Source: a bacterium
GTDB taxonomy: Bacteria; Hydrothermota; UBA3073; JACQXS01; JAQTXJ01
Assembly: GCA_028716385.1 (NCBI GenBank)
Contig: JAQUPX010000003.1
Location: 1-64,000 of the forward strand
DNA: 64,000 nt
Direction of reading: 5' to 3'
This document shows positions 42,510 to 46,298 of this stretch, piece by piece (position 1 is the first letter of the stretch; each line of letters opens with the position of its first letter). Made by a program: the position numbers and the translations under genes. The notes under the pieces were generated by a model, which ran no database searches, was not told the DNA's origin, and saw only the letters and a program-made list of their open reading frames with translations.

Positions 42510-42833
42510 CTACTCCCCCCTCCCCGTCTTTCTCTTTACTTCCTTGTAAATATATTTCACAGGATATTTCAAAAACTTGCTCTCACAATCCTGTGAACAA
42601 AAATAATAACTTTCATCAACATATTTCAATTTTAGCGAGTGTGACTTATATACTTCCGTCCCACATACGGGATCTATGCTTCTTATTGACGTGTCCTCTT
42701 CTTTCTTTGGTGGCAACTTTTCTTCTTTCTCTTTTTTATTAAAATTAAGATTAAGATATGAACAACCAACTATCGCCCCAATTAACATATATAAAAATAT
42801 GCCCGCCACCGCCTTTGCTGTTTTCTTAACCAT
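42510..42833 (-). CDS. YHS-domain protein (lipoprotein-like)
   Basis: This protein of about 107 residues has a membrane/lipobox-like N-terminus (IFLYMLIGAIVGCSYL, with the candidate lipid Cys in GCS), a charged linker and a C-terminal YHS domain: DPVCGTEVYKSHSLKLKY then YYFCSQDCESKFLKYP. YHS domains bind metals such as copper through Cys pairs. I chose ATG 42833, preceded by GGGGGGAATA. It follows the selenoprotein gene on the same strand and could belong to the same transcript. Confidence 0.82.
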   Translation of the reverse strand: MVKKTAKAVAGIFLYMLIGAIVGCSYLNLNFNKKEKEEKLPPKKEEDTSIRSIDPVCGTEVYKSHSLKLKYVDESYYFCSQDCESKFLKYPVKYIYKEVKRKTGRGE

Positions 42834-42929
42834 TATTCCCCCCACAAACACCTGTTATTTATTATTCTTTTCCCTTTCGGTTCATTTACGACTTCACCTG
42901 TAATAGCAACATCCTTTAGTCCTGTTTTC

Positions 42930-43940
42930 TTATTTTACTAAAAGAAATTTTCTCGTTTCTCTTTGATTTCCTGCTTGCAATTCTGCAAAATAAATCCCTG
43001 AAGAAAATTCGTTGCTGTCAAAAATTACTTTGTAATCCCCTGCCGACTGTATTTTATTGACTAATATTCTTACTGCCTTGCCGGAAATATCATAAACCGT
43101 TAATTTTACATTTGTATAATCAGGTAAAGAATAAGAAATATCGGCTTTCTTATAGACCGGATTTTCAGAGATTTTTAACAAGACGGATTGATTTTTAATA
43201 TCCGGGTTTTCTTCTTTTGTTATGGTTAAAACAGATTTTTTAACTCCCTGACATACCTCTACGCTTGTTGAAGACTGCTGAAAAAAAGAAATTATACTGC
43301 AATTACTCACATCCCAACTTGAGTCTATTGCAAAACTCTGTGTTATATCAGTAGAAGCTCCTGCTGCTAATGTCTTAAAAGTGCCGGCGTAAGGCAGCAT
43401 ATCTCTTACCACGTTATACAACATACTTTCCCCTTCCCATGAATAAGGGATATTCGTCTCAACAATCATTATATGAAGAACACCATTTAACGAACCACTC
43501 GTTATGTTGGTAACATGAGCTTCAACGGTCCCGTTTCTTGTTGATGAATTATAAGAACCTGTAAGTTCTATTGTCATTTTAGGTGCAAAAACTTTACGAA
43601 GGTCAAAATAATTTCTGCTGTCGGCATAGCTCGGACTTGCCTGAAAATTCCACCCGTCATATATTACAGATGGAGTTCCCGGAATACCATAATAAGCATA
43701 TGCCCTGTCGTAAGTTTCCGTTGTTTTATAAGGGTCACCGGTACCGGAGTGAAAAGAAAGAACTGCTATTGTATCATTTGCTTCCTGTTCTAATTGATGC
43801 AGCGCCCTCGCTGTCGTTGGACAGTACGTTCAGGTAGTTGAGGTAAACTCTTCTATTACCACTACTTTTTGCATAGCTGATGCTACGTTGACCAGAGCCA
43901 CCAGAATACAGGCAATTCTTAAAAAAATATTTTTACGCAT
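42930..43940 (-). CDS. Predicted secreted selenoprotein: Omp28-like thioredoxin-fold protein (UxxC) with sorting tail
   Basis: Reading from ATG 43940 through an in-frame TGA at 43832-43830 to the stop at 42930 gives one 336-residue protein. Residues 1-22 are a signal peptide (RKNIFLRIACILVALVNVAS). The segment after it reads VVVIEEFTSTT-U-TYCPTTARA, where Omp28-like thioredoxin-fold proteins have EEFT-x-x-WC-x-x-CP. The UGA thus replaces the first Cys of CxxC, giving UxxC (Sec37, Cys40). Residues of about 25-120 are thioredoxin-like (IPGTPSVIYDGW), 122-250 the Omp28 beta domain (VVRDMLPYAGTF), and 253-336 a type IX-like sorting domain. A GC hairpin lies 16 bases after the UGA. It starts 15 bases after selD. 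Without Sec insertion the protein would be truncated at 36 residues. Confidence 0.85.
43800..43832 (-). promoter_or_regulatory. Candidate bacterial SECIS of the thioredoxin-fold selenoprotein
   Basis: After the UGA (43832-43830) and a 16-base spacer comes the hairpin CAGCG-AGGG-CGCTG (43813-43800), a 5-bp GC-rich stem with a loop in which the second base is G. This fits the loose bacterial SECIS rule (stem-loop starting some 11-16 bases after UGA, G in the first two loop positions). It lies within coding sequence, as bacterial SECIS elements do. Confidence 0.65.
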
Positions 43941-43955
43941 ATAACCCTGTTTTCG

Positions 43956-45005
43956 TTACCTTTTTATTATTATTTTCCCTTTGGGTTCATCCACAACTTT
44001 ACCGATAACAGCAGTATCTTTTAGTCCTGCTTTATTCATTTTTGAAACCATATCATTCGCTTTATTAGCCGGAACAGATATTAACAGCCCACCCGAAGTC
44101 TGCGGGTCAAACAAAACATCCTTAATCCAATCCGGCATCTTATCAGACATTTCTACGAATTTTATTCTAAAATCCTTATTTCGATAAGCTCCTCCCGGAA
44201 CCATTCCCATTTTCACAAGTTCCTCAACCCCACTAAAAATAGGAATTTTATCAACATATAGTTCTACACCAACCTTCTTTTCCCCGGTAATCATCTCGCA
44301 AATATGCCCGATAAGTCCAAAACCCGTTATGTCAGTGCAGGCGTTTACACCCGTTTCCTGCATAATTTCGGAAGCAACCCTATTCAACGCAGTCATTGAC
44401 TTAACTATTTCATTTACACTTTCACTAGACGCTAAATTAGCTTTAATCGCCGTGCTGATTATTCCGGTACCCAATGGCTTCGTAAGCACTATACTATCCC
44501 CTGCTTTCGCGCCCGTATTTCTGACTACTTTATCGGGATGAATTGTTCCCGTAACGGAAAGCCCGTATTTCAATTCCGAATCCTCAACACTGTGTCCGCC
44601 AACAAGCGTCACTTCAGCTTCTTTAATTTTTTCAAGTCCACCTTCTAATATCTTTTTAAGAACGGATATGTCTAATTTACTCACGGGGAAACCTACAATA
44701 TTCATCGCCACGATAGGTTTTCCACCCATAGCGTAAACATCCGAAAGAGCATTAGCCGCCGCAATCTGCCCAAAAAGATATGGGTCGTCAACTATAGGAG
44801 TAAAAAAATCTACCGTCTGCACGATAGCAATATCATCCGTTAACTTATAAACACCGGCATCCTCTGCATTCTCAAAACCGGCAATAAGATTCTTATCTTT
44901 TTTCTGAATCAACCCACACAGCGCCTTATCCAGTACACCTGGACCTAATTTAGCCGCTCAGCCACCGCCTTTGCTGTATTGTGTCAATTTAAAGTCGTCA
45001 CTCAT
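43956..45005 (-). CDS. selD: Selenophosphate synthase, itself a selenoprotein
   Basis: SelD makes selenophosphate from selenide and ATP, the donor for selenocysteine. From ATG 45005 (preceded by GGAGGAATA) the frame reads MSDDFKLTQYSKGGG-U-AAKLGPGVLDKAL..., with UGA at 44960-44958, and runs to 349 residues. Sec16 occupies the catalytic Cys17 position of E. coli SelD, and the following Lys19 matches E. coli Lys20 with the same spacing. Downstream motifs agree: LVGGHSVED, TKPLGTGI, DITGFGLIGHICEM and FDPQTSGGLLISVP. A start at 44912 would lose the active site. It lies between the AIR-synthase-like gene (upstream) and the secreted selenoprotein. Confidence 0.95.
44929..44960 (-). promoter_or_regulatory. 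Candidate bacterial SECIS of selD
   Basis: After the UGA (44960-44958) and 14 bases, the hairpin TCCAG-GTGTA-CTGGA (44943-44929) has a 5-bp stem and a five-base loop beginning with G. Spacing and loop composition fit a bacterial SECIS that lets SelB insert selenocysteine. Confidence 0.7.
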
Positions 45006-45242: not shown

Positions 45243-46298
45243 CTAATGCTTCTTCATCGCATCATAAAAAGCCTGCCAAAATGGGTCTACCCTCGGATGT
45301 TCCAATTCCCTATCCTTGCCATTTTCTCTTAATATTATTTTCTCTTTGGCATTCGTTAATTCCCCAACAATTGCCGATTTAATACCTTCTTTGGATAATA
45401 CGTTAACTACCTCTTGCGCTTTATGCGGTCTGCAAGAGACAATCAAAGTCCCTTCACTTATGGACTTATAAGGGTCAATCTTGAAATAATCGCATATCTC
45501 TTTTACGTTATTCTCTACCGGGATAAGTTCTTTCTCTACCCTTATCCCCAACCCGCTCGCTTGCGCAAGTTCATATAAGCCGCCCCAGATTCCGCATTCC
45601 GTAGCATCATGCATTGAACTTATTCCTTCGTCCCTGACTCCTACTTTTACCGCAGCCATAGCCTCTTTTACGACGGACATTTTATAAAACAACTCCTGCG
45701 ATTGCTTGGAGAATTCACTTCCAAATTCCTTTTCAAGCAGTTTAGGAAACATAGCCGCAAATATCCCGCAGGCTTCTATCGCAGGCCCTTTTGTAATAAT
45801 TATTTTATCCTTTTCTTTTGCCATTTTAGGAGTTACGTATTTGTCTTTATCCCCTATAGCCAAAACCGTAGCGCCACCAACCATCGGATAATTGCAGTTT
45901 TCATACCTCGCAGTATGTCCACAAATTACACTTATTCCAAATTTTTTACATTCTTTATGAATTGTCTCCCACATTATTTGTATCTCTTCTTCGTTTATTT
46001 CCATAGGTAAGTTAAGGTCTATTGCCATATAAACCGGAGGCAGCCCGCTTGTTACCACATCGGAAATAAGTATATGCGCAGCAAACCACGCCGCTCTCTC
46101 CCAACCATAAGCAGGAACTATAAATACGGGGTCAGTCGTTATCGCCACCGCCTGTGTCCCGATTTCTACGATTCCAACGTCTACACCATGCTGTGGGCCT
46201 ACAAGTATATTCTTATTAACGGCGCCTAAACGCGGAAATATCAGCTCGTTAAAAACCTCAGGCGATATCTTGCCAATATCCGGAAGCTTTGTTTTCAT
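45243..46298 (-). CDS. AIR synthase-related protein (HypE/SelD/ThiL superfamily)
   Basis: This 351-residue protein has the PurM-type two-domain fold: N-terminal PRLGAVNKNILVGPQHGVDVGI, the Asp-rich AITTDPVFIVPAYGWERAAW, and SDVVTSGLPPVYMAIDLNLP; then VICGHTARYENCNYPMVGGA and DATECGIWGGLYELAQASGLGI, which match the AIRS_C Gly-rich loop. Proteins of this superfamily bind ATP and activate an acyl or phosphate group. It lies directly upstream of selD and opposite the LysR gene, which suggests a role in selenium or a related cofactor, but the reaction is not known. It has no SelD-type catalytic Cys/Sec motif at its N-terminus. Confidence 0.82.
   Translation of the reverse strand: MKTKLPDIGKISPEVFNELIFPRLGAVNKNILVGPQHGVDVGIVEIGTQAVAITTDPVFIVPAYGWERAAWFAAHILISDVVTSGLPPVYMAIDLNLPMEINEEEIQIMWETIHKECKKFGISVICGHTARYENCNYPMVGGATVLAIGDKDKYVTPKMAKEKDKIIITKGPAIEACGIFAAMFPKLLEKEFGSEFSKQSQELFYKMSVVKEAMAAVKVGVRDEGISSMHDATECGIWGGLYELAQASGLGIRVEKELIPVENNVKEICDYFKIDPYKSISEGTLIVSCRPHKAQEVVNVLSKEGIKSAIVGELTNAKEKIILRENGKDRELEHPRVDPFWQAFYDAMKKH

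Follow-up and report, generated by a model that had tools for sequence, protein, structure and literature searches.

A gene for an Omp28-like protein, located at 42,930-43,940 on the minus strand of the window (the whole stretch of 64,000 nucleotides that was analysed), contains an in-frame UGA and is, as judged by sequence comparison, a selenoprotein gene and not a pseudogene. This conclusion follows from the column in which relatives have either UGA or a Cys codon, the co-occurrence of UGA copies with selA, a hairpin after the codon and the purifying selection that acts downstream of it. By comparison we established the reading of the UGA, the family and fold of the product, its C-terminal tail and the machinery for selenocysteine (Sec). 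Taken as a whole, the explanation that accounts best for these data, and which we consider very probable, is that of an exported Omp28 protein that reads UGA as Sec and acts as a thiol/selenol-disulfide oxidoreductase at the cell surface.

The frame starts with an ATG at 43,940 and extends to 42,933, followed by the TAA stop at 42,932-42,930; it has 336 codons if UGA is counted as Sec (the features described below between 42,510 and 45,005 are also on the minus strand). There is a single in-frame TGA, at 43,832-43,830, which corresponds to residue 37 (TSTT-U-TYCP), and 299 codons lie beyond it, in agreement with the sequence-only reading, which had proposed that the frame stays open through this codon. 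The UGA occupies the first position of a UxxC motif, where the first Cys of CxxC would be expected, and the presumed resolving residue, Cys40 (43,821-43,823), is kept, as had also been claimed. The sole ATG-started standard ORF in the same frame begins at 43,577 and has neither signal peptide nor CxxC. Initiation at this internal ATG, after the UGA, was ruled out: the homologues begin upstream of the UGA, are full length and carry a signal peptide before the U or C, which was the check on starts suggested beforehand.

Six Omp28-like genes were found in the genome, and the six of them have UGA at the same site. When 100 genomes of the phylum were searched with a profile constructed from these paralogues, 54 gave relatives, the source genome of the window counted in; this and the other genome counts for Omp28 relatives are counts among the matches listed. 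Seventy-six members were read at the DNA level. At the site 48 of them had TGA and the other 28 a Cys codon, with TAA or TAG in none, so that the catalytic Cys column is kept as Sec or Cys in every member, and the +3 position was Cys in 76/76 (Cys40 is invariant in A3 too). In all six paralogues and in all 48 UGA relatives checked the UGA falls on this one column. A selA match was obtained in 27/27 genomes with a listed UGA copy versus 1/27 with only uninterrupted copies (Fisher p = 3e-14 among the listed matches, an optimistic value because the genomes are related); in one of the former, G005, selA is in two pieces that are below the cut-off. The dN/dS ratio after the UGA was 0.04-0.35 in 14 pairs, and for the gene at 42,930-43,940 it was 0.35 versus the nearest paralogue and 0.28 versus the orthologue of that paralogue; the purifying selection downstream of the UGA therefore indicates that this part is translated. 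It could be argued that translation does end at the UGA, the gene being a pseudogene or a Cys codon having been misread in sequencing, considering that UGA ends 2 of the 29 long ORFs of the window as an ordinary stop. Such a reading is highly improbable, given that the UGA stands at exactly one codon in six separate paralogues and in a total of 48 members, that UGA members are confined to Sec genomes, that selection persists past the codon and that the hairpin described below is selected at synonymous sites. Both decay and error were refuted by the comparison with the paralogues and the 76 relatives and by the dN/dS values.

The tree of the family required at least 8 Sec/Cys changes, at least 6 of them forced by well-supported branches; the tree is unrooted and does not fix their direction. 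From these sequences, Sec and Cys appear to have replaced each other several times across the phylum-wide Omp28 family. It was also possible to see some local patterns around the site. The long-form Cys members of the clade L030-L048 (e.g., L032 and L041) have ATW-C or GTW-C, and in the Sec members of this clade the Trp is mostly replaced (ATT-U, ATA-U, and ATN-U), ATW-U being kept in L031 and L035. A group diverged from the others (L093, L094, and L095) is formed by short Sec members of about 236-262 aa, lipoprotein-like and devoid of a sorting tail, with motifs such as FFTDDM-U-PFC.

The machinery for Sec insertion, for which a search in the same genome had been recommended, was complete: selA (578.7 bits), selB (372.6 bits) and a tRNA-Sec (70.3 bits with Rfam; anticodon UCA according to ARAGORN) are located together at C1:488548-493983, in about 5.5 kb, and selD is in the window itself, next to the gene. 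An alternative genetic code, in which the organism would read UGA as a sense codon genome-wide, was also contemplated and has nothing in its favour beyond the in-frame UGA. In the window UGA terminates the two ORFs already mentioned, and the scan for read-through UGA gave selD as the only plausible case besides the gene under study; among about 150 matches to the sorting tail in the genome, internal UGA is limited to the six Omp28 genes, and the full Sec machinery is present. Since UGA is a normal stop and the interruption is confined to the Omp28 genes among tail-bearing matches, the code is not altered, and this alternative was rejected as having a negligible probability.

A SECIS-like hairpin, CAGCG-AGGG-CGCTG, is found at 43,800-43,813 and starts 16 nt after the UGA, with a perfect 5-bp stem and the loop AGGG; the GC hairpin with G in the apical loop that the sequence-only reading had described is thus present as claimed. 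The suggested SECIS prediction gave a divided result: none of 300 synonymous recodings that preserve the peptide did as well as the hairpin (p = 1/301), whereas folding of the 48 nt of the SECIS region alone did not favour it (z +0.38, not significant) and the Rfam search for the SECIS family gave no match. In the relatives from the phylum, a hairpin with a stem of at least 4 pairs, an energy of -3 kcal/mol or lower and a start 13-18 nt after the codon was present in 45/48 Sec copies versus 9/28 Cys copies. Considering that folding against dinucleotide shuffles separated Sec and Cys copies only weakly (p 0.005-0.012), the synonymous-recoding test was added, and its null was beaten at p < 0.05 by 37/48 Sec versus 1/28 Cys copies. 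The z-values of the two classes differed with a Mann-Whitney p = 1e-10, which is optimistic because the copies are related. The stem also covaries: in a Sec clade of 23 rows, C-G changes to U-A in eight sequences, and the covariation score was reached in 0/500 shuffles, with no slid register coming close.

The architecture of the protein was in accordance with what had been proposed for its two sides of the UGA. Residues 1-22 (MRKNIFLRIACILVALVNVASA; 43,875-43,940) fit a predicted signal peptide, read from the sequence and modelled as a helix at 3-20, and signal peptides or lipoprotein signals are found in nearly all relatives. The thioredoxin-like domain covers residues 25-117 (43,590-43,868), and it is followed by the Omp28 beta domain, residues 118-240 (43,221-43,589; PF11551), and by a type IX secretion system (T9SS) type A C-terminal sorting domain, residues 254-336 (42,933-43,181; TIGR04183 and PF18962). 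These last two domains exceed the curated cut-offs: PF11551 matched residues 80-237 with 44.0 bits (gathering 34.9), and it was matched at E<=1e-3 in 38 of 40 relatives, while the sorting domain scored 40.6 bits with TIGR04183 (cut-off 23) and 35.7 with PF18962 (27). None of the Pfam thioredoxin models gave a match to the protein over its cut-off. The AlphaFold2 model, obtained with a 40-row alignment, had a mean pLDDT of 92, with values of about 95 over the thioredoxin-like domain and low confidence in the linker 243-250. It predicts a strand at 27-33, the UxxC (37-40) at the N-terminal end of helix 1 (40-57), and Pro90 (43,671-43,673), a candidate cis-proline in a GTP motif, just before the strand 91-94, an arrangement known from thioredoxins; the beta domain has its strands at 122-236, and the tail forms a separate beta-rich unit at 254-334. 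Pro90 is invariant in the six paralogues and conserved in at least 90% of 40 relatives. Transglutaminases headed the fold search (TM about 0.3), but these matches were set aside because they reflect beta-sandwich domains held in common. The genome has a T9SS translocon component, SprA (413 bits, cut-off 200), and a PorU-like sortase that is barely over its cut-off (423.6 versus 420 bits). When the genome contigs were scanned with the window protein, the sole match was to the sorting domain.

Judging from the fold, the UxxC and the tail, the most likely role is that of a thiol/selenol-disulfide oxidoreductase at the surface. In the mechanism that we propose, SelB and Sec-tRNA(UCA), guided by the short hairpin that follows at a distance of about 16 nt, would read UGA37 as Sec. 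The chain would then leave the cytoplasm by the Sec pathway, and the type IX system would hand the protein over to the outer surface by means of the C-terminal sorting domain. There, Sec37-x-x-Cys40, which opens helix 1 and faces Pro90, would work as the thiol/selenol-disulfide redox centre, probably with disulfides, peroxides or selenium/sulfur compounds outside the cell as substrates. Surface location, chemistry and substrate are thus what we infer for the window protein, and the gain in reactivity from Sec that the sequence-only reading proposed is likewise putative.

The claim that no Sec-containing Omp28 or sorting-domain protein had been described was wrong. The NCBIfam family NF045500 is named "Omp28-related selenoprotein"; it has been equated in a 2026 review (PMC13188914) with the hypothetical protein GOS_C, which Zhang and Gladyshev predicted in 2008 on the basis of 74 sequences from the ocean that showed UxxC and a Trx-like fold (PMC2398784). 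Exported Omp28-related selenoproteins are therefore already known as a kind. The window protein resembles NF045500 in the UGA-encoded UxxC within a thioredoxin-like domain followed by the Omp28 domain, in the signal peptide and in the several copies per genome; the UxxC, which in the window protein reads TSTT-U-TYC-P, is also seen in L103-L114 and L116-L120, and 3 of the 5 NF045500 members scanned (L112, L113, and L116) have a TIGR04183 tail over the cut-off. However, it reaches only 71.5 bits versus a cut-off of 200, it aligns to model positions 28-277 of 377, and instead of the C-terminal region of the model it has the sorting domain directly after the beta domain; in its phylum, moreover, Sec and Cys alternate repeatedly. 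No NF045500 match at E<=1e-30 was obtained in 147 genomes of this phylum. In Neomarinimicrobiota, the phylum of locus L025, 18/199 genomes were over the NF045500 cut-off, nearly always with one UGA, and up to seven matches occurred in one genome. By these sequence comparisons the window protein is a cousin placed outside the curated family.

Two other families and one single protein share part of this architecture. NF033782, the Omp28 family outer membrane lipoprotein, has the same PF11551 domain, but the window protein scored 61.4 bits versus a cut-off of 150, has Sec for Cys and carries a T9SS tail in place of the lipobox; among the paralogues only L006 is lipoprotein-like. DUF1223 (PF06764; PDB 2axo) was the best thioredoxin-type Foldseek match (TM 0.63 by target length), and the motif FTS-x-x-C-x-x-CP is common to both, although the score was 20.2 bits versus a gathering value of 30.7, and DUF1223 is a Cys form without sorting tail. 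HBP35 of P. gingivalis (PDB 5y1a), which we take to be a thioredoxin-domain cargo of the T9SS, is similar in that the T9SS tail takes a thioredoxin-like domain to the surface; it differs in being Cys-based and not Omp28, and its sequence match stays below the threshold (E 0.46). The literature search gave no paper joining a selenoprotein with Omp28 or with a sorting domain; for selenoproteins and type IX secretion nothing relevant was retrieved, the sole match being a rabbit nutrition study, and the selenoproteome reviews searched do not discuss secreted selenoproteins (the terms "secreted" and "signal peptide" are not used). What is new here is a subfamily in which Sec and Cys are exchanged throughout the phylum, its presence in six copies within a single genome, the hairpin evidence, a T9SS tail together with T9SS genes, and a recurring selD neighbourhood.

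This neighbourhood begins at the locus itself. The gene directly follows selD, as had been noted, and the end of selD (selenophosphate synthetase; 43,956-45,005) is 15 bp upstream. The window selD has an in-frame UGA at the catalytic position (44,960-44,958; GGG-U-AAKLGP), as have most selD genes found in the phylum. Further upstream, 45,243-46,298 encodes a second AIR-synthase-like protein whose best match is HypE, below the cut-off (97.6 versus 251.6 bits). Directly after the Omp28 gene there is a stretch of 79 nt (42,858-42,936) that is 80% identical to 43,963-44,041, in the 3' end of selD, and downstream of it an ORF for a YHS-domain lipoprotein-like protein (42,510-42,851), whose first codons (42,805-42,824) are identical at 19/20 nt to the part of selD around its Sec codon (44,961-44,980). 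Both the 79-nt stretch and the start of the YHS ORF are probably remnants of a duplicated selD. Since the Omp28 gene lies between selD and such a remnant, its adjacency to selD could be an accident of that duplication.

Nine genomes from three families of the phylum, the genome of the window included, have selD in the vicinity of an Omp28 gene. In the families f12 and f15 (L125-L132), Omp28 genes with Sec or Cys adjoin selD in clusters that also hold an FtrB-like protein, a double-cubane reductase, its activase and a SAM methyltransferase, and some of them MtaA-like and corrinoid proteins; clusters of this last kind, known as type I mlp clusters, have been associated with the use of methyl-selenium (PMC10418091). 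In G027, G033 and G054, a second copy of selD, with no UGA in the matched stretch, is beside a Cys Omp28 gene. Taking into account these clusters, and that the window gene follows selD too, the same selenoprotein might serve for selenium acquisition, with the surface Sec/Cys protein reducing or capturing extracellular selenium compounds for the SelD pathway. We consider this job unlikely. Cys copies are common in genomes without a selA or selD match; the window gene belongs to a subclade other than that of the f12/f15 copies, it has none of the other cluster genes nearby, and its adjacency to selD may stem from the duplication; and the other five Omp28 copies of the genome are not near selD. 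Some Cys copies have different neighbours instead: in four genomes without selA (G014, G050, G078, and G087), Cys-type Omp28 is found with an AhpC/TSA (TlpA-like) redoxin and a DUF6029 protein, families that were scanned on the G014 copies, and this association points to a part in an extracytoplasmic thiol system. The cassette was seen at L134, L139, L140 and L141, and at L140 there are eight Omp28 genes in one cluster.

A surface thiol/selenol-disulfide oxidoreductase is then the role that we prefer for the window protein, and, thanks to the selD and methyl-selenium-type neighbourhoods of its relatives, a link to selenium supply can be put to the test. In the wider form of that link, which we find unlikely, the Sec/Cys Omp28 proteins of the phylum would be the surface arm of selenium assimilation: exported by the T9SS, they would capture (methyl-)selenium compounds outside the cell, or reduce them, for the benefit of a SelD/double-cubane/corrinoid pathway. 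If this were true, selenium would be used to collect selenium. Standard gene calling truncates the Omp28 Sec genes, and a large family in an uncultured phylum has been overlooked. Its existence raises the question of how a selenol can stay intact while the protein is exported and sorted to the surface. Six such genes in one genome and the phylum-wide exchange of Sec and Cys at one column constitute a natural experiment on when Sec repays its cost outside the cell.
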